Position numbers and translations under genes: made by a program. Positions 12,502 through 20,329 of a stretch of 64,000 nucleotides of DNA are shown here, one piece after another. The first letter of the stretch is position 1, and each line of letters starts with the position of its first letter. The stretch is from NCBI RefSeq assembly GCF_008642235.1, contig NZ_SJEV01000001.1, positions 2,684,400 to 2,748,399 on the forward strand, read 5' to 3'. The notes below the pieces were generated by a model. That model was not told the DNA's origin, did no database searches, and worked only from the letters and a program-made list of their open reading frames with translations. Source of the DNA: Planctomonas psychrotolerans (GTDB lineage Bacteria; Actinomycetota; Actinomycetes; Actinomycetales; Microbacteriaceae).

Positions 12502-13427
12502 GCGCTCCGGCGAGGTCCGGGTCCATCGCGGCACCCGTGCTGCTCGCCTGCTCCCACGGCACCTCGTCGCCCGCCGGTCAGCGCTCGGTCGCCGCACTCG
12601 TCGAGGCCGTGGCGGCGCGCCGGCCCGACGTGCTGGTGCGCGGCGGTTTCGTCGACGTGCAGCAGCCCGACGTCGAGGCATCGCTCGACGCTCTGGAGCC
12701 CGCACGCCCCGTCACCATCGTGCCGCTACTGCTGTCCGCCGGGTATCACGTGCATGTGGATCTCGCCGAGGCGGCCGACGCTGCCGCTCCCCGACCGGTA
12801 GCGGTGACCGGTGCCCTCGGGCCCGACGTGCGCCTCGCGCGCATCCTCGCCGCCCGCCTCGACATCGCCGGTCTGCGTGCCACCGATGCGGTGGTCCTCG
12901 CGGCCGCGGGGTCCAGCGACGCGAACGCGGTGCGGGACTGCGAGCGAATGGGGCACCTGCTCGCCGCCGAGATCGGGAGGCCGGTGACGGTGGCCTTCGT
13001 CTCCGCGGCGAAGCCGCGCGTCCCGGTCGCGGTGCTCGCCGCCCGCGAGGCCGCGGGTTCCGACCGGGTGGTCGTCAGCACGTTCCTGCTGGCCCCCGGC
13101 TACTTCGCCGATCTCGCGCGCCAGATGGCGCTGTCGGCCGGCGCCGCGGTGGTGAGCGATCCGTTGCTCGTGGACGGCGACGCACCCCCGGCCGACCTCG
13201 TCGACATCGTCAGCGATCTCTACGACTCCGTGCCGGTGGCCCCGAGCGCTGCTCCGGCCAGGACCGCGGCCCCGCCGTCGAGAGCCGGTGTCCTAGCGGG
13301 CCTCGGCCACCTCGCGCGCCGACTCCGTCGCGGGAAGGGTGCACGTGAACACCGACCCCTCGCCCAGCACGCTGCGGCAGGTGAGGCTGCCCCCGTGCCG
13401 CTCGACGATGTCCTTGGCCAGCGCTAG
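12498..13427 (+). CDS. cbiX: sirohydrochlorin chelatase, CbiX type
   Basis: A 309-residue two-lobed chelatase. The N-terminal lobe starts with LLACSHGTSSPAGQ (metal-site His19) and has PLLLSAGYHVHVDL. The C-terminal lobe has AAAGSSDANAV and FLLAPGYFADLA. It would insert iron into sirohydrochlorin to finish siroheme for NirB. The start overlaps the nirD stop. The final ~40 residues, Arg/Ala rich and without a recognisable domain, are encoded opposite the end of the histidine kinase gene; this 135-bp antisense overlap is unusual. Cobaltochelatase activity is possible, but no cobalamin genes are present. Confidence 0.85.
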   Translation: MSAPARSGSIAAPVLLACSHGTSSPAGQRSVAALVEAVAARRPDVLVRGGFVDVQQPDVEASLDALEPARPVTIVPLLLSAGYHVHVDLAEAADAAAPRPVAVTGALGPDVRLARILAARLDIAGLRATDAVVLAAAGSSDANAVRDCERMGHLLAAEIGRPVTVAFVSAAKPRVPVAVLAAREAAGSDRVVVSTFLLAPGYFADLARQMALSAGAAVVSDPLLVDGDAPPADLVDIVSDLYDSVPVAPSAAPARTAAPPSRAGVLAGLGHLARRLRRGKGAREHRPLAQHAAAGEAAPVPLDDVLGQR

Positions 13428-14975
13428 CCCGAGCCCGAGCCCCGGGATCACGCTGCGGCGGGCTTCCGAACTGCGGAAGAACCGGGTGAACACGTCCCTC
13501 GCGTCCTGGTCGCTCATCCCCATGCCGGTGTCGGTCACCGAGAACATCACGCCGTCGTCCGTCGCACCGGCGTGCACCGTGACCGCGCCGCCCTGCGGCG
13601 AGTACTTGATGGCATTCGAGATGAGGTTGTCGAGCACCTGCGTCATCCGCGCCGCATCGCAGGACACCGGCAGGGACTCGGGGGTGTCGGCCTGCAGGGC
13701 GATGCCGGCCGCCGCGGCGCGGGGGAGGCCTGCGTTCACGGCCGAACGCACCAGCGCAGCCAGGTCGTTCGGCGCGACCCGGATCTCGGTGGCCCCGGAG
13801 GCGGCGCCGAGCAGGTCGCTCACGAGCCCCAGCAACTGGGTGGAGTTGCGCGTGATGACCTCGAGGCCCCACTCCACCTCGGAGGGGAGGTTCTCCGACA
13901 TGCCGATCAGTTCGGCGTACCCGTGGATGGAGGTCAGCGGCGTCCGCAGTTCGTGCGAGACGTGGGACACGAAGTCGTCCTTCGCAGCCAGGGCGGCCAC
14001 GAACTCCGTGACGTCGGAGTACGCGATCACGCTGCCCTCCATGCGTCCGTCGGCGTCACGAATGGTTCGAGCCGACGTCGACAGCACGCGCTGATTGCCC
14101 GGCTCGCCGATCCACACCAGGTAGTCGGAGAAGGTCTCGCCCGCCGCCGCCCGCCGTTCCGGCCGCTCCTCCGCCGCGAGGGGCACGGTCCCGCCCTCGC
14201 CGAAGAGCAGCAGGTCGTCCTCCCTGGCATCGAGAACTCCCCGCGGCATGCCGTACTCGTGCAGCGCCTGCTGCGTGCTGTTCATCATCAGGCGCCGACC
14301 GTCCTCGCCGATCGCCAGCACGCCCACGCCCACCGCGTTCACGATCGCGTTGAGCAGGCGCTCCCGCCGCGCGGTGTCGTCGAGGAGGGCCCGCAGTTCC
14401 ACGTCCTTCGACTCCACCACCCGCTGCTGCTCGGTCATGCTCGACGTCATCACGCTCACGGTGACCGCGATCGCGAACATCATGAACGGCAGGAGAAGGG
14501 GCTGGGTCAACGACTCGAGCGTGACGCGTGCGTCTCCGATGAAGAGCGGCACCCACACGACGCCGAGGGTCGCCAGCGCGCTCGCGAAGATCGAGAACCT
14601 CGGCAGCTGTCCGGACGCGGCGAGCCAGATGACGGGGAAGGCGGCGAGGAGGCCGAGCCCGGTGACGGTGTCGGCGGCCGACTCGCGCAGCAGCCCGATC
14701 GGTACGAAGTCGAGCAGCGGGACGGCGAGGAACGACGGGTAGGGAAGCCTCTCCCACGGCACCACCACGCACGCCGCGAACAGAGCAACGGTGAGGACGA
14801 CGGAAGCCCGGAGTCGCGAGTCGTCGAAGAGGGCCGCGTCGGTCAGCGCGATCCACAGGAACAACAGGAGCATGGTCGCCGACAGCGGGATCTGGCTGAG
14901 GAGCACACGCCCGCGGAGCGACAGTGCGTGAAAGCGCACCCGGTTCAGGGTGAGAAGGTTCAGCAGTTTCTCCAC
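13293..14975 (-). CDS. membrane sensor histidine kinase with PAS domain
   Basis: A 560-residue kinase. Several hydrophobic helices cover residues ~25-180, a short coiled linker follows, and a PAS-like domain covers ~205-325. The HisKA box SHELRTPLTSIHGYAEL has His340. The HATPase domain has the N box DNLISNAIKYS and glycine boxes VTDTGMGM and GLGLGLALAKDI, so it looks active. There is no obvious extracellular sensor; the membrane part itself may sense. The start is GTG. It is divergent from the response-regulator/phosphatase gene 74 bp away, its likely partner. The 3' end overlaps cbiX by 135 bp. Confidence 0.9.
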   Translation of the reverse strand: MEKLLNLLTLNRVRFHALSLRGRVLLSQIPLSATMLLLFLWIALTDAALFDDSRLRASVVLTVALFAACVVVPWERLPYPSFLAVPLLDFVPIGLLRESAADTVTGLGLLAAFPVIWLAASGQLPRFSIFASALATLGVVWVPLFIGDARVTLESLTQPLLLPFMMFAIAVTVSVMTSSMTEQQRVVESKDVELRALLDDTARRERLLNAIVNAVGVGVLAIGEDGRRLMMNSTQQALHEYGMPRGVLDAREDDLLLFGEGGTVPLAAEERPERRAAAGETFSDYLVWIGEPGNQRVLSTSARTIRDADGRMEGSVIAYSDVTEFVAALAAKDDFVSHVSHELRTPLTSIHGYAELIGMSENLPSEVEWGLEVITRNSTQLLGLVSDLLGAASGATEIRVAPNDLAALVRSAVNAGLPRAAAAGIALQADTPESLPVSCDAARMTQVLDNLISNAIKYSPQGGAVTVHAGATDDGVMFSVTDTGMGMSDQDARDVFTRFFRSSEARRSVIPGLGLGLALAKDIVERHGGSLTCRSVLGEGSVFTCTLPATESAREVAEAR

Positions 14976-15049
14976 GACGTGGACGCTCCGGTTCGATTGA
15001 GGTGGCTGGCCGATATGACAAATGGTGCCAAGACCGCCTTAATAAGAAC

Positions 15050-16150
15050 ATGTCCGAAGCCGAGAACGTGCGCCGCGCCGTAATCGTCGAAGATAACGAC
15101 GACATCCGGCGACTCCTCGTCCAGATCGTCGCGGCGCAGGGGTTCACCGTGGACGAAGCGGCGACCGGCTCGGCCGGGCTGGAGTTGATCCGCAGCCGCG
15201 GGGCCGATCTCGTCACGCTCGACCTGAACCTGCCCGACCTCGACGGAGTGGAGGTGTGCAGGCGGTTGCGGGAGTTCTCCGACGCCTACGTGCTGATGAT
15301 CACGGCACGCGCCGACGAGATCGACCGCCTGTCCGGGCTCGACGTCGGTGCGGACGACTATCTCAGCAAGCCATTCAGCCCCCGCGAACTCGCGGCGCGG
15401 ATCACCGCACTCTTCCGCCGGCCGCGATCGGCGAGTGCGGCTGACGCCCCGGGCGCGGAGGAGCAGCGGCGCGCCGCCGAGGTGCAGCGCAGCCTGCTGC
15501 CCCAGCAGGACCTGCGGGTCGACGGTTACGAGATCGCCGGCCGGTGTCGTCCGGCGCGCAGCGTGGGCGGAGACTTCTTCGACTGGTACGCCACCCGCGA
15601 GGGGCTCGGGGTCACCGTGGCCGACGCGATGGGCAAGGGCATGGGTGCCGCGCTCCTCGCCGCCACCGTGCGCGGGGTGCTGCGGTCCACGGCCGGGCAG
15701 TCGGACCTCGATCTGGCGTTCGGGGTGGCGGGGGCCATGCTGCACACCGACCTCGAACAGTCCGGCTCCTTCGTCACGGTCTTCCACGCCCGGCTCGACG
15801 CCGCGTCCGGCCTGCTCAGCTACGTGGACGCCGGCCACGGCCTCGCTCTGCACGTGAGCGGTGCCGGGCTCACCCGCCTTCCGTCGAGTGGTCCGCCCGT
15901 CGGTGCCGTCGCCGATTCCCTCTGGGCGTCGGAGCGACTCGCGCTGGCGCCGGGCGACGCACTGCTCGTCGTGAGCGACGGCGTGCTCGACTCGTTCGAC
16001 ACCGTCGACGCCGCCATGTCCGCCGTCGGCACGGCGGTGTCCGCCAGCCTGTCGGTGGAGGACGCGTGCGATCGAATACTGGAGTTGGCATCCGGACCGG
16101 AAGTGACGGATGATGTGACTGCAGTCATGCTGAGGCGCGGGGATGGATAG
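15050..16150 (+). CDS. response regulator with C-terminal PP2C/SpoIIE phosphatase domain
   Basis: A 366-residue protein. The receiver domain (1-125) has acidic residues Asp15/17/18, phosphoacceptor Asp58 (TLDLNLPD), Thr85 and Lys107. A short linker precedes a PP2C domain (~140-366) with VGGDFFDWY, VADAMGKGMGAAL, DAGHGLALH, SDGVLDS and TDDVTAVML, all expected metal-binding aspartates present. RsbU/RsbP-type phosphatases dephosphorylate STAS antagonists, and one is encoded two genes downstream. I chose the ATG at 15050, which lies just before the receiver; an in-frame GTG at 15002 would add 16 residues. Neither has a strong ribosome-binding site. Confidence 0.9.
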   Translation: MSEAENVRRAVIVEDNDDIRRLLVQIVAAQGFTVDEAATGSAGLELIRSRGADLVTLDLNLPDLDGVEVCRRLREFSDAYVLMITARADEIDRLSGLDVGADDYLSKPFSPRELAARITALFRRPRSASAADAPGAEEQRRAAEVQRSLLPQQDLRVDGYEIAGRCRPARSVGGDFFDWYATREGLGVTVADAMGKGMGAALLAATVRGVLRSTAGQSDLDLAFGVAGAMLHTDLEQSGSFVTVFHARLDAASGLLSYVDAGHGLALHVSGAGLTRLPSSGPPVGAVADSLWASERLALAPGDALLVVSDGVLDSFDTVDAAMSAVGTAVSASLSVEDACDRILELASGPEVTDDVTAVMLRRGDG

Positions 16151-16178
16151 CGGCTCGTAGAACTCCCGGGGGGGAAAA

Positions 16179-18134
16179 GTGAGGGACTTCGCCGTCCGCG
16201 CGATCATCGTGCTGACCGTCCTGCTCGGCGTCAACTACGTGGTGTGGCGGTGGTGGGAGTCGCTCAACTGGTCGGCGTGGTGGATCGCGGTGCCCCTCGT
16301 GCTGGCCGAAACCTACAGCCTCATCGATGTCGCACTGTTCGGCATGACCGTGTGGCGGCGCAAGCAGCGGGGCGAGCCTCCCGTTCCTGCCGGCGATGCC
16401 ACCGTCGACGTGTTCGTGACGACGTACAACGAGCCCCTCGATCTCGTGCTCACGACGGCTCTCGCAGCGGAGCGCATCACCTACCCGCACGACACGTGGA
16501 TCCTCGACGACGGCGCTCGTCCCGAGTTGCGGGAACTCGCGATGCAGCACGGGATCGGCTACCTCACCCGTAGCGATGACTGGGTCGATCGGCCGCGGCA
16601 CGCCAAGGCGGGCAATCTCAACAACGCGCTCATGATGACGTCGGGTGAGTTCCTGCTGATCCTCGACGCCGATCAGGTGCCCGACGCCGCCATCCTCGAC
16701 CGCACCCTCGGGTACTTCGACGACGATCGGGTGGCGCTCGTGCAGACCCCGCAGTACTTCGCGAACGTGCCCGCCGACGATCCGTTGGGCAGCCAGGCGC
16801 CGCTCTTCTACGGCCCGATCCAGCAGGGCAAGGACGGCTGGAACGCCGCATTCTTCTGCGGGTCGAACGCGATCCTCCGTCGGGAAGCGCTCATGCAGCT
16901 CGGGCTCACCGGATACGTGCGCGAGGTGGACCGGAGCGTGCGGCGGGCGCTCACCGTGTCCGGATCCGTGCTGCGCAAGGCCCGCCGGTCTCCGGAGGGC
17001 GCGGATGCGCTCGTCGCCTCCCTCCTCGACGAGGTGGAGTCGTCGACCGCACGCGCCCGGGTCGAGCTCGATGCCGGTGCCTCGTTGAGCGAATTGACCT
17101 ACCGCGTGCAGACCCGCGTTCAGGGCGCGGTGCAAACGCTCGTCGCGTCGGACTTCTCCGCGGTGGAGACCGACCTCGCCGAGATCGCGGCGATGGAGCG
17201 GGACGCGGCGGAAGCGCCGACCTCGTCGGACACGCTCGACCTCGCCGTCGAGCGCATGTCGCGGCGCGACTGGTCGCCGCTCGGCGCACTCACGTCCGTG
17301 CAATCCCTGCTCGACGCGGTGTCCATCGAGCGGTCCTCGGAGGCGCAGCCGGTGATGCCGCTGGCGACGATCTCGGTGACGGAGGACATGGCGACCTCGA
17401 TGCGGTTGCACGGGATGGGGTGGCGGAGCGTCTACCACCACGAGGTGCTCGCGCACGGGCTCGCCCCCGAGGACCTGCAGACGATGATGACCCAGCGGCT
17501 CCGCTGGGCGCAGGGCACCATCCAGGTGATGCTCCGCGAGAACCCGCTCGTGCAGCGCGGACTCAGCATCGGTCAGCGCCTCATGTACTTCGCCACGATG
17601 TGGAGCTACCTCAGCGGCTTCGCGGCCCTCGCCTACATCGCGGCCCCGGTGCTGTACCTCACCACCGGCATCCTGCCGGTCAACAGTCTGAGCTACGAGT
17701 TCTTCGTGCGCTTCATCCCGTTCATGGTCGTCAACCAGCTGCTGTTCCTGGTGATCGGGCATGGGATGAGCACCTGGCGGGGGCAGCAGTACAGCCTCGC
17801 GCTCTTCCCGACCTGGATCAAGGCCTGCACGTCCGCCGCGCGGAACGTGTGGTTCGGTCGGCCGTTGCAGTTCGCGGTCACGCCGAAGAGCCGGCAGGTC
17901 GGCGGCCCCACCGTGCGGCTGATCCTGCCGCAGCTGATCGCCATGGCCCTCCTGGGCATCGCGCTCGTCGCCGGGCTGATCCGCCTCGCCATGGGCCTCA
18001 ACGAACCGATCGGTACGCTGGTCAACGTCGCCTGGGTCGCCTTCGACCTGGTGGTGCTTGGCGTGCTGATCACGGCAGCACGATACAGGGGATACGTCCC
18101 CGAGGGGAGCACAGCGGATGCAGTTCACGGTTGA
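16179..18134 (+). CDS. cellulose-synthase-like processive glycosyltransferase (GT2)
   Basis: A 651-residue membrane enzyme. Two helices (about 8-23 and 33-52) precede the GT2 domain: nucleotide loop VTTYNEP (80-86), DDG (110-112), DAD (163-165), FFCGSN (225-230), TED (401-403) and QRLRW (439-443). At least four further helices follow after residue 460. These are the catalytic and product-binding motifs of BcsA-type synthases. Two departures stand out: about 150 extra residues between FFCGSN and TED (235-390), helical and charged, and no PilZ domain at the C-terminus. GTG start after GGGGGGAAAA. The sugar polymer is unknown; cellulose or a related beta-glucan is plausible. Confidence 0.85.
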   Translation: MRDFAVRAIIVLTVLLGVNYVVWRWWESLNWSAWWIAVPLVLAETYSLIDVALFGMTVWRRKQRGEPPVPAGDATVDVFVTTYNEPLDLVLTTALAAERITYPHDTWILDDGARPELRELAMQHGIGYLTRSDDWVDRPRHAKAGNLNNALMMTSGEFLLILDADQVPDAAILDRTLGYFDDDRVALVQTPQYFANVPADDPLGSQAPLFYGPIQQGKDGWNAAFFCGSNAILRREALMQLGLTGYVREVDRSVRRALTVSGSVLRKARRSPEGADALVASLLDEVESSTARARVELDAGASLSELTYRVQTRVQGAVQTLVASDFSAVETDLAEIAAMERDAAEAPTSSDTLDLAVERMSRRDWSPLGALTSVQSLLDAVSIERSSEAQPVMPLATISVTEDMATSMRLHGMGWRSVYHHEVLAHGLAPEDLQTMMTQRLRWAQGTIQVMLRENPLVQRGLSIGQRLMYFATMWSYLSGFAALAYIAAPVLYLTTGILPVNSLSYEFFVRFIPFMVVNQLLFLVIGHGMSTWRGQQYSLALFPTWIKACTSAARNVWFGRPLQFAVTPKSRQVGGPTVRLILPQLIAMALLGIALVAGLIRLAMGLNEPIGTLVNVAWVAFDLVVLGVLITAARYRGYVPEGSTADAVHG

Positions 18135-18465
18135 GAATCGGCCCGACTTCGCGGAGGTGCAGGGCGTCGGTCGGTTGAACATGGTCTCGGCGCCGAAGCT
18201 GCGCGAGGTGATCGCCGGAGTGGTGGCGGGGGGCAGGACGCACGTGGTGGTGAATCTCGGCGGCACCGACTTCATGGACTCCTCGGGACTCGGGGCGCTC
18301 ATCGGCTGCCTCAAGCTCGCCCGACAGGCCGGGGGAGACCTGCGCATCGCCAACGTTCAGCCGCAGGTGCGCATGGTGCTCGAGCTCACCAACATGAACC
18401 GCGTGCTCACGCCCTACGACAGTGCCGAGGCGGCGTTCTCCCCTCGCGGCGACTCCCGTGACTGA
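18118..18465 (+). CDS. STAS-domain anti-sigma factor antagonist
   Basis: A 115-residue single STAS domain. The phosphorylation loop DFMDSSGLGAL places the acceptor at Ser55, as in SpoIIAA/RsbV. It starts inside the glycosyltransferase gene (17-bp overlap) and ends over the start of the kinase gene, so the three are likely translated together. In known systems such a protein, when dephosphorylated by a PP2C enzyme, binds the kinase and frees its target. The target here may be a sigma factor elsewhere or the glycosyltransferase itself; the sequence does not decide. Confidence 0.9.
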   Translation: MQFTVENRPDFAEVQGVGRLNMVSAPKLREVIAGVVAGGRTHVVVNLGGTDFMDSSGLGALIGCLKLARQAGGDLRIANVQPQVRMVLELTNMNRVLTPYDSAEAAFSPRGDSRD

Positions 18466-18889
18466 CGTCCTGGCGGAGGTGTCGCGTTCGGGTCCCGCCA
18501 CCGCGGAGACCGTGGACGCGTTGCATGACGACCTCGACCGGCTGTGGGCCGCCGCGGACTTCGTTCCGGACCTCGACCGGATGGCCTTCGCCACCGCGGT
18601 GATCGAGGCCGCGTCGAACGTCGTCCAGCACGCGGTGCCGTCCCGGGAATCCGTGCAGCTGGGCGTCGACATCTCGGTGCGCCCGCACCGCCTGCACGCC
18701 CGCATCCTGGAGATCGGCGCCGCGCCGGCGTCGGTGGAACTGGCCGGTGAGCACGGCGACGACGAGGAGGCCGAGAGCGGCCGGGGCCTCGCCCTCATCC
18801 GCGCCCTGGTCAGCACCGTCACGTTCGAACGGAGGGGGGCCGACAACGTGTGGGTGCTGTGGCGGGACGCACCCGGCGCGACGTCCTGA
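18458..18889 (+). CDS. RsbW-like serine kinase/anti-sigma factor (HATPase_c_2)
   Basis: A 143-residue GHKL-fold protein. The N box is AVIEAASNVVQHA, with the Glu and Asn in place. The G2 box is ESGRGLALI. The G1 box, normally DxGxG, reads EIGAAPA, so ATP binding may be weakened. I place the start at GTG 18458, overlapping the STAS stop by 8 bases; an ATG at 18422 would add 12 residues inside the STAS gene. Its expected role is to phosphorylate the STAS protein and hold a target. The G1 change makes kinase activity less certain than binding. Confidence 0.82.
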   Translation: MTDVLAEVSRSGPATAETVDALHDDLDRLWAAADFVPDLDRMAFATAVIEAASNVVQHAVPSRESVQLGVDISVRPHRLHARILEIGAAPASVELAGEHGDDEEAESGRGLALIRALVSTVTFERRGADNVWVLWRDAPGATS

Positions 18890-18937
18890 CCGCTCGGGGT
18901 CGAGCGGGTGCATCCGGGCGTCGCCCGGGCCGCCCGG

Positions 18938-20329
18938 TCAGGCGCGCGCGGCCAGTCGTCGCACGGCGGTGGTGGGGATGCTGAGCCAGTCCGGACGGTT
19001 CCGGCTCTCGTAGATCGCCTCGTACACGGCCTTGTCGATCTCGAAGGCGTCGAGCACCGCACGGTTGGCGCGGACGTCGTTGCCGGAGTGCTCGATGTAG
19101 CCGTCGAGGAAGGCGCGTCGCGCCGCGTGAGCCCACTCCGCCGACGCGTCGGCGTTCTCCGGGCGGGCCAGGGCGATGGATCCGGCCACGTAGTCGAAGG
19201 ACCGCAGCATGCCCGCCACGTCCCGCAGCGTCACGTCGGGCTCGGAGCGCTCGTGCATCGGTCGGAGAGGTTCACCCTCGAAGTCGAGCAGCACCCAGCC
19301 GCGTCCGGGCACGGCGAGCACCTGGCCCAGGTGGTAGTCGGCGTGGATGCGCTGGAGGCTCGGCCACGTGCTCGACTCCGCTCGCGCGTAGACGCGTTCG
19401 ATCGCCGCCCGCTCCTCCGCCAGCTCCGGCACCTCGGAGACGGCGGTCGCGAGACGCTCCCGGAAGCTGCGGAGAATCTCGCCCACGACGGCGGGCGAGG
19501 CGGGCACGGTGGGCAGCACGGCAGCGAGCGTGGCGTGCACGTCGGCGGTGGCCTGCCCGAGCGAGTGCGCCTCCGCGGTGAACGGCACGCCCTCCTCGGC
19601 CGCACGCACGGCGACGCGCCAGGCGTCCTGCACGCCGGGCAGGAACTCCTGTGCGAACGCGAGGTGACCGGTGGCGACGGCGTCGTCCCGACCCGGATCG
19701 CGCCAGGTGCCCACGACGTTGCCGATGGAGAGCGGCACGTTGACCGACCCGGCTCCGGCCAGCGCGGACTGCAGCACCACGTCCGGGTTCTCCCCGTGGT
19801 GCACCGCGCGGAACACCTTGCAGATGATCGGGTTGGTGGCCTCGCCGTTGTCGTCGACGAGGTCGTAAATGATCGACGTGTTGGACTGCTCGCCGCTCAG
19901 CACGCGGGACCCGACCACGGTGGAGATCTGGGCGCCCGGCTGCCGGTGACCCTGCGCGGTCGCCTCGTCGGACTTCTCGTCGAGCTGGGCGGACCCCTCG
20001 TCGAGAATGAGCCGGAGGAGGGCCCACGAGTAGGCGGGGTCCTGCGGACCGTCGTACACGAAGAAGGTTTCCCCGTCCTGCTCGACCGTGCCGATCAGAG
20101 CGGACTCGTGACCCTCGAGCGGTTCGCTCCGCAGCGTGATGGGCACCTGGTAGAGCGCCGGCGTTCCACCGGAGAAGTCCACCAGCAGGTGCGTCTCGAT
20201 CCGGGCGAACCAGCCCTCATCGCGGAACGACCAGACACCGCGGCTCTCGAGGACGGGAATGCGCCCCTTGCCGCCGTACCAGCGCTGTTCGGCTATCCAT
20301 TCGGGCAGGATCTCGTGGACATCGCTCAT
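18938..20329 (-). CDS. mak: maltokinase
   Basis: A 463-residue cytosolic kinase of the aminoglycoside-phosphotransferase fold. It begins with the typical IAEQRWYGGKG stretch. The catalytic loop HADYHLGQVL and the metal-binding LLDFEGEP are near residues 330-360. It uses ATP to phosphorylate maltose to maltose-1-phosphate, the donor for GlgE in the trehalose-to-alpha-glucan pathway. The usual partners treS, glgE and glgB are not next to it here. The 38-bp gap to the flavoenzyme gene upstream leaves cotranscription possible. Confidence 0.88.
   Translation of the reverse strand: MSDVHEILPEWIAEQRWYGGKGRIPVLESRGVWSFRDEGWFARIETHLLVDFSGGTPALYQVPITLRSEPLEGHESALIGTVEQDGETFFVYDGPQDPAYSWALLRLILDEGSAQLDEKSDEATAQGHRQPGAQISTVVGSRVLSGEQSNTSIIYDLVDDNGEATNPIICKVFRAVHHGENPDVVLQSALAGAGSVNVPLSIGNVVGTWRDPGRDDAVATGHLAFAQEFLPGVQDAWRVAVRAAEEGVPFTAEAHSLGQATADVHATLAAVLPTVPASPAVVGEILRSFRERLATAVSEVPELAEERAAIERVYARAESSTWPSLQRIHADYHLGQVLAVPGRGWVLLDFEGEPLRPMHERSEPDVTLRDVAGMLRSFDYVAGSIALARPENADASAEWAHAARRAFLDGYIEHSGNDVRANRAVLDAFEIDKAVYEAIYESRNRPDWLSIPTTAVRRLAARA

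Follow-up and report, generated by a model that had tools for sequence, protein, structure and literature searches.

Introduction

RsbU/RsbV/RsbW and SpoIIAA/SpoIIAB are partner-switching systems acting on a sigma factor. The same protein families, with the same phospho-site, are encoded together with a polysaccharide synthase in a locus of Planctomonas psychrotolerans (Actinomycetota; Microbacteriaceae), located in the 64,000-nucleotide stretch analyzed here (contig NZ_SJEV01000001.1, positions 2,684,400 to 2,748,399), to which we will refer as “the window”. Five genes are concerned, coding for a membrane histidine kinase (HK), a receiver protein with a SpoIIE/PP2C-type phosphatase, a processive family 2 glycosyltransferase (GT2; this enzyme and its homologues are referred to as GT), a STAS protein of the anti-anti-sigma type and an RsbW-like serine kinase. 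We favour, with moderate confidence, a partner-switch module whose output would be the synthase itself, the STAS protein being predicted to contact the GT directly.

Other STAS-based systems have been related to polysaccharides or to enzymes. In SypE/SypA, from the syp locus of Vibrio fischeri, the unphosphorylated STAS protein is the active form, Ser56 is the relevant residue, and biofilm polysaccharide is the result (PMC8256260; PMC4517449); a 2021 review described the target of SypA as unknown (PMC8256260). A STAS or STAS-like partner controls a diguanylate cyclase in SiaABCD and HsbA/HsbD (Pseudomonas aeruginosa) and in BgrV/BgrR (Sinorhizobium meliloti) (PMC8457831), and the binding of SiaC is blocked by phosphorylation (PMC8457831; PMC7647112). 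BgsA likewise has no PilZ domain (PMC5567048), and all4160 of Anabaena combines STAS and glycosyltransferase in one protein (PMC8256260).

Conservation of the Gene Set

Relatives of the locus were taken as the best 80 of 486 related stretches (Arthrobacter and relatives, Kocuria, Jonesia and Nocardioides); together with 35 fetched loci, they provide 115 GT loci carrying the helical insert described below, chosen by similarity and not at random. Neighbouring genes were sought within 6.5 kb by profile hidden Markov models trained on the operon’s own families. Within this reach, a STAS gene accompanies the insert-bearing GT in 110/115 loci, an RsbW-like gene in 111/115 and a SpoIIE-type phosphatase in 105/115, all three being present in 104/115. 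STAS and RsbW each lie on the same strand, at most 2.5 kb downstream of the GT, in 106/115 loci, and the PP2C gene lies upstream on that strand, within the same distance, in 85/115. The GT-STAS-RsbW order recurs in contigs of Arthrobacter, Kocuria, Jonesia and Nocardioides and in genomes of the window’s family, and this core is constant while the input domains of the phosphatase vary. Among eight phosphatases scanned, two carry GAF, one a receiver, one is a kinase-GAF-phosphatase fusion, two have no input domain, and the remaining two gave membrane-type matches below cut-off (PilS-like, MASE1). The synteny envisaged for all five genes in the preliminary description is strongly borne out for GT, STAS, RsbW and phosphatase, and less so for the HK, a homologous divergent copy of which (47–60% identity over at least 547 residues) lies upstream in 11 of the 80 relatives’ loci.

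Eleven loci hold incomplete sets: no partner was found in L060; L105 ends at the contig end; L068, L104, L137 and L154 show no PP2C; L138 and L169 have STAS only, and L156–L158 RsbW only. The STAS-RsbW pair is found on the opposite strand, 3–5 kb off, in L068, L073 and L087, and upstream of the GT in L146. Ten further full-type loci (L178–L187) contain STAS, RsbW and PP2C, although L179 duplicates the Jonesia contig of L106, and some of the rest may likewise be loci already counted. The GT match of another locus, L177, skips residues 421–444 (QRLRW motif included), and its genome holds a full operon at L185; L177 may be a decayed copy. Same-family STAS-RsbW pairs also occur at second loci without a GT (L188, L189, L190).

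As a control, the surroundings of insert-less GT2 paralogues (29–45% identity to the GT in matched pieces) were searched in stretches of 11–17 kb, and STAS or RsbW genes were detected near 0/20 of them; since the profiles were trained on the operon’s families, a very distant STAS or RsbW could escape detection. One control, L121, shows the PP2C and GT of the same genome’s insert-type operon, whose STAS and RsbW lie just past the stretch, at a distance of ~6 kb from that paralogue (L151). The switch accompanies the insert, not GT2 genes generally, and a chance clustering of the five genes was rejected on the recurrent gene set against the 0/20 controls.

As for its distribution, a GT match was found in 88/299 sampled family genomes (E ≤ 1e-20), in 15/297 order genomes (E ≤ 1e-70) and in 2/396 phylum genomes (whole-GT search, three candidates scored each), counts which include the window genome and are lower bounds, with 3–4 candidates scored per genome; a phylum search with the insert profile (at most nine candidates scored each) also gave 2/396, likewise a lower bound. 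The full-length insert is found in 45 of the 299 family genomes, and a short form of it in 5.

A Kinase-Less Sister Clade and GT-STAS Fusions

Nine loci (L131–L135, L173–L176) hold a GT whose insert is shorter and has diverged, and a STAS gene is present in 9/9 of them. The distance from the FCGSN to the TED motif is 136–143 residues in this sister clade vs. mostly 170–192 in the full type, where, of 159 frames checked, 3 have a distance of 130 and 2 could not be matched. Neither RsbW nor PP2C was found in the stretches around these GTs (0/9), and the Asp-Ser phospho-site is kept in 0/9 of their STAS proteins, the corresponding positions being TA or TP in five aligned sequences and GA or SP in four aligned by eye. 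Kinase, phosphatase and phospho-serine are all missing at the sister-clade loci, whereas loci of the full type almost always have them. Furthermore, GT and STAS form a single open frame in two of these loci (L132, 7444–9933, plus strand; L133, 6513–8927, minus strand), the STAS part being C-terminal and without the phospho-serine; Pfam confirms that of L132 (residues 694–794, 26.3 bits, cut-off 22.6). The 185 loci with a GT match include these 2 GT-STAS fusions and 0 GT-RsbW fusions.

With the window RsbW as query, no homologue was found at E ≤ 0.01 in five sister-clade genomes tested, in which all PF13581 matches lie in frames exceeding 300 aa, like ordinary histidine kinases, although frame length is not decisive for the kinase type (the RsbW of L156 sits in a 461-aa frame). 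Two of the remaining four genomes (G763, G879) also hold an RsbW and an operon of the full type, and the other two (G902, G943) have PF13581 matches elsewhere, in frames of 288 and 162 aa; therefore, in these four the kinase is missing at the locus only, not demonstrably from the genome.

In a GT tree of 111 of 157 sequences (Micrococcaceae thinned), read as bipartitions with no clean outgroup, all sister-clade sequences fall on one branch (support 0.995), with the full type next to it (0.878), and both are split from the insert-less paralogues, L151_14109 (also contained in L121) among them, at support 1.0. The shared core of both clades is GT, insert and STAS.

The Synthase and Its Helical Insert

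The CelA profile matches the GT in two separate stretches, and both CelA and BcsA models remain below cut-off (TIGR03030, the BcsA equivalog, 343.7 bits, also in two stretches, cut-off 699.1), because ~150 residues intervene between the FCGSN…LRREAL segment and TED. The DDG, DAD, TED and QRLRW residues are invariant or nearly so in 41 aligned GT sequences, and FAVTPK resembles the gating loop of BcsA; in BcsA, TED marks the start of the finger helix and FxVTPK forms the gating loop. No PilZ domain was matched in the GT at E ≤ 0.01 in a Pfam scan. The AlphaFold2 (AF2) model of the full GT is weak (mean predicted local distance difference test score, pLDDT, 63.2, with poor insert junctions) and was therefore used for the fold only; its top Foldseek matches in the PDB are BcsA chains (9b8v, E 6.9e-21; 4p00, E 2.6e-18). 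On this model, the GT is predicted to have a BcsA-type fold. Its polymer is probably a beta-linked glycan.

The insert splitting the GT domain is absent from the preliminary description. It measures 144–154 residues in 110 aligned sequences (the window’s own included) and is less conserved than the GT core (mean frequency of the commonest residue 0.67 vs. 0.86–0.87), while the alignment of the insert-less control paralogues breaks off at GT residue 242 and picks up again around residue 395, with hardly any gap. The insert is predicted to be all-helical (mean pLDDT 73.6 in a model of its own). Pfam gave TraB/PrgY/gumN in 4/8 members scanned (best E 8.9e-05; not in the window’s copy), together with weaker, scattered matches; this identity was rejected, the match being attributed to helix composition. 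A PDB sequence search yielded weak matches (best E 0.039), Foldseek gave nothing below E 0.35, and VIA-align reached Z scores up to 8.8, mostly with designed or generic helical bundles; no sigma-like fold is among the structure matches listed for the insert model by these two programs. In these searches, the insert has no convincing match to any Pfam family or solved structure.

The Phospho-Site and the Kinase

The window STAS reads D54-S55-S56-G-L-G, in agreement with the previous proposal of Ser55 as phospho-acceptor, and D-S-S or D-S-T is present in 113/118 aligned STAS proteins (the window’s included), the five exceptions all belonging to the kinase-less clade. In the RsbW-like kinases, the N-box Glu/Asn and the G2 GxG are kept in 116/116 loci. 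Loci whose kinase has Ala or Glu instead of the G1-box Asp still keep the phospho-site Ser in their STAS. The window kinase scores 18.8 bits with NF003144, the RsbW equivalog (cut-off 145 not reached). Judged by frame length, the operon’s RsbW is the only one in the window genome that looks stand-alone, and the only other STAS match of this genome lies in a 539-aa frame.

Proposed Mechanism

From the protein families, the membrane HK would sense a signal and set the phosphorylation of the receiver domain, whose state would in turn set the activity of the attached PP2C phosphatase. The latter would dephosphorylate Ser55 of the STAS protein, and the RsbW-like kinase would phosphorylate it; the co-occurrence of site and kinase is observed. 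Unphosphorylated STAS would be the active form, docking on the cytosolic side of the GT and switching it on, whereas phosphorylated or RsbW-held STAS would neither dock nor activate. The contact between STAS and GT is suggested by their fusions and co-inheritance, and our guess for the docking site is the helical insert preceding the TED/finger region. The module would thus replace, for a GT without detected PilZ domain, what c-di-GMP (cyclic dimeric guanosine monophosphate) and PilZ do for BcsA. The sister clade, in which STAS is fused to the synthase or adjacent to it while phospho-site, kinase and phosphatase are missing at the locus, could be seen as a constitutive version; a role of STAS as activator or obligate subunit agrees with this arrangement better than an inhibitory one.

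Direct control of the synthase appears likely, given the GT-STAS fusions, the kinase-less clade without phospho-site and the lack of a SigB/F/G-level match in the window genome. More tentatively, STAS may be a regulatory subunit of insert-bearing, PilZ-less cellulose-synthase-like enzymes in general, with Ser phosphorylation gating polymer synthesis directly; we lean slightly away from this wider claim.

Alternative Outputs of the Switch

Several observations weigh against a direct STAS-GT contact and are gathered here with the readings that they favour. In a classical output, RsbW would be an anti-sigma factor and STAS its antagonist, the operon being autoregulated or controlling other genes through an alternative sigma factor, with the GT simply one of the regulated genes in that operon. 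Besides the family precedent of RsbU/RsbV/RsbW (reviewed in PMC8256260), the strongest point in this direction is that SigBFG-like factors are enriched with the GT (6/15 GT-positive vs. 3/85 other genomes, among the first 100 of the family). Such a factor is carried by 16/45 full-type family genomes. Of 15 SigBFG-like genes examined (L191–L205), 12 were taken from full-type genomes and 3 from genomes lacking the GT; according to the operon-trained profiles, RsbW, STAS or PP2C lies within ~4 kb of none of them (0/15), so the operon’s RsbW could serve them where present; cross-talk is possible where both exist. These factors score 200–231 bits with TIGR02980 (SigBFG), with one intermediate genome (G003) at 164; as none reaches the curated cut-off of 234 bits, the presence line was drawn by the score gap. 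The best match of the window genome (G000), 130.7 bits, stays at the level of most family genomes, and 29/45 full-type genomes have none at the higher level. For the window genome, the sigma route was accordingly demoted as the principal explanation; nor does it leave any place for the GT-STAS fusions or the kinase-less clade, and the absence of switch genes at the insert-less paralogues also speaks against it. We regard it as unlikely. The preliminary description had admitted control of the polymer either through a sigma factor or by direct contact; the comparative evidence favours the latter, and the former may still apply in those 16 genomes.

A direct effect could also run through the kinase, RsbW binding the insert as a stand-in for the sigma factor and STAS freeing the GT by drawing RsbW off, which would keep the layout of a classical partner switch. 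Three genomes belonging to one genus (L156–L158) have RsbW after the GT without an intervening STAS; a STAS-RsbW pair occurs elsewhere in 4/4 searched genomes of this genus (read out in two, L188 and L190), and another of its genomes has the normal set (L155). An RsbW-GT contact fits this arrangement at least as well. The shorter FCGSN-to-TED distance in the RsbW-less clade points the same way, as does covariation, slightly: in 116 paired loci (effective number 65), the insert, which contributes 137 of the 401 variable columns of the GT, accounts for 53 of the top-100 GT-RsbW pairs vs. 47 of the top-100 GT-STAS pairs. Since this signal fails to discriminate between STAS and RsbW, it is not used as evidence for STAS. 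The fusions, 2 to 0 in favour of STAS, and the insert and STAS kept without nearby RsbW in nine loci speak against this kinase-mediated contact, which we consider quite improbable; the structure searches may point the same way, the matches listed for the insert model including nothing sigma-like. An indirect route, with STAS or RsbW acting on a diguanylate cyclase and the GT answering to c-di-GMP, has a precedent in S. meliloti BgrV/BgrR and the PilZ-less BgsA (PMC8457831; PMC5567048); the window genome has eight GGDEF matches, and c-di-GMP binding is compatible with a missing PilZ. However, the five genes include none of the GGDEF type, PilZ was not found in the GT, and a GT-STAS fusion would bypass any cyclase, so this route seems very remote.

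Further difficulties for a STAS-GT contact come from individual loci and residues. The insert-type GTs of L060 and L177 stand without any partner gene found. In genome G026, GT and a STAS with intact Asp-Ser lie at L138, with RsbW, STAS and PP2C at a separate place (L189), and the STAS of L169 keeps Asp-Ser in a genome without a match to the window’s RsbW; phospho-site and neighbouring kinase are, therefore, sometimes uncoupled. The G1-box Asp of the kinase is Asp in 39, Ala in 61 and Glu in 16 of 116 loci (Glu in the window), and its replacement in 77/116 makes ATP use uncertain. Also, the tree gives no direction as to whether the kinase-less state is derived or ancestral.

Locus Layout, Neighbours and Origin

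Domain scans confirm the five genes where the preliminary description had placed them (Table 1), all with Pfam domains above cut-off, and refine two start codons. For the phosphatase, ATG 15050 (MSEAENVRRAVIVEDN) is a likelier start than GTG 15002, and for RsbW, GTG 18458 (reading MTDVLAEV…), close to the onset of homology, is likelier than GTG 18422. PF07228, PF01740 and PF13581 are all above cut-off, so three partner-switching families are encoded together, and the HK (HisKA/HATPase_c), whose N-terminal part reads as hydrophobic in the translation, adjoins a receiver protein, a two-component pairing by families for which phosphotransfer is predicted. The SpoIIE-type motifs GGDFFDW, ADAMGKG, VSDG and TDD are readable in the phosphatase.

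Table 1. Position of the genes and sub-features of the locus in the window.
Feature	Position	Strand	Supporting features
Membrane histidine kinase (HK)	13293..14975	-	HisKA, HATPase_c, PAS_4 domains
Receiver + SpoIIE/PP2C phosphatase	15050..16150 (alternative GTG start 15002)	+	PF00072 99.4 bits, PF07228 100.5 bits
Processive GT2 / BcsA-fold (predicted) polysaccharide synthase (GT)	16179..18134	+	DDG, DAD, TED, QRLRW, FAVTPK motifs
Helical insert of GT (predicted), ~150 residues (GT residues ~241-393)	16899..17357	+	Between FCGSN..LRREAL and TED
STAS anti-anti-sigma-type protein	18118..18465	+	PF01740 66.9 bits; TIGR00377 76.9 bits (cut-off 53.45)
STAS Asp54-Ser55-Ser56 codons	18277..18285	+	Ser55, predicted phospho-acceptor
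RsbW-like serine kinase / HATPase_c_2	18458..18889 (alternative GTG start 18422)	+	PF13581 48.5 bits

The divergent orientation of HK and phosphatase noted previously was recovered, with a spacing of 26 or 74 bp depending on the phosphatase start, and so were the overlapping starts (17 nt between GT and STAS; STAS and RsbW likewise overlapping). A simple consensus scan of positions 13000–19100 detected no intrinsic terminator, and the sole promoter-like site lies within the phosphatase gene; no DNA-binding domain was found in the receiver-phosphatase protein by Pfam. Scanned immediate neighbours are CbiX-like and Rieske-type genes on one side and a maltokinase-like gene on the other, whose link to a secreted polymer is not evident.

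In relatives, a linked protein cluster lies near the GT in 16/40 selected loci (15/16 on the GT strand, median ~2.5 kb downstream). Eight members scanned comprise six with an OpgC/acyltransferase domain and two GH26, and a second cluster, in 5/40 loci, gave GH26 in 2/2 scanned (OpgC: L068, L108, L139, L143, L155, L178; GH26: L135, L175, L099, L180). They are possible polymer-modifying partners, and their presence hints that the glycan may be acylated; neither OpgC nor GH26 genes are among the window’s immediate neighbours. Among the best 80 of 486 stretches, the window operon is closest to Micrococcaceae (GT 69–77%, STAS up to 83%), and its GT groups with three Kocuria sequences in the tree (0.907), while the GTs of two genomes from its own genus show 62% identity. 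As the operon is nearer to Micrococcaceae/Kocuria than to its own genus, it was probably acquired horizontally, judging from these identities.

Comparison With Known Systems

Should STAS indeed be a regulatory subunit of these enzymes, with its phosphorylation gating them directly, partner switching would turn a processive GT2 synthase on and off independently of c-di-GMP; such control would be widespread among Micrococcaceae and their relatives, and hard-wired through gene fusion in the sister clade. It would add a second-messenger-free gating of a cellulose-synthase-fold enzyme, and would give the helical insert a role and provide a handle on the polymer of common soil actinobacteria; the STAS-synthase fusion in two genomes also offers a concrete, testable target candidate for polysaccharide-linked STAS proteins. 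In the open-access literature (subscription journals being largely uncovered), we found no published STAS/RsbW pair directly controlling a GT2 synthase, and no paper on this polymer. The novelty of direct control claimed in the preliminary description holds, in the literature searched, for a GT2 synthase, and not for enzymes generally, since diguanylate cyclases have been published as targets (PMC8457831).

The locus resembles BcsA in fold (as modelled) and motifs, and BgsA in having no PilZ domain; neither is known to have the helical insert. It differs from both in that they are known to be activated by c-di-GMP acting on the C-terminal domain. Unlike RsbU/RsbV/RsbW and SpoIIAA/SpoIIAB, it is found in a genome with no SigBFG-level sigma match. 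As in the Sia, Hsb and Bgr systems, an enzyme would be subject to a partner switch for which the phosphorylation state is essential; their target is a diguanylate cyclase upstream of polymer synthesis, whereas the candidate target here is the synthase. all4160 has its STAS domain at the N-terminus, whereas in L132 and L133 it is C-terminal on a BcsA-like GT. Finally, SypE/SypA would share with the locus a response-regulated kinase/phosphatase that acts on the corresponding serine of a STAS protein made of a single domain, in a polysaccharide context. SypE joins kinase and phosphatase in one protein, while separate genes encode them here (although L148 and L168 have a kinase-phosphatase frame), and, unlike in that system, the STAS gene is here tied to one synthase gene, to which it is fused in two relatives.

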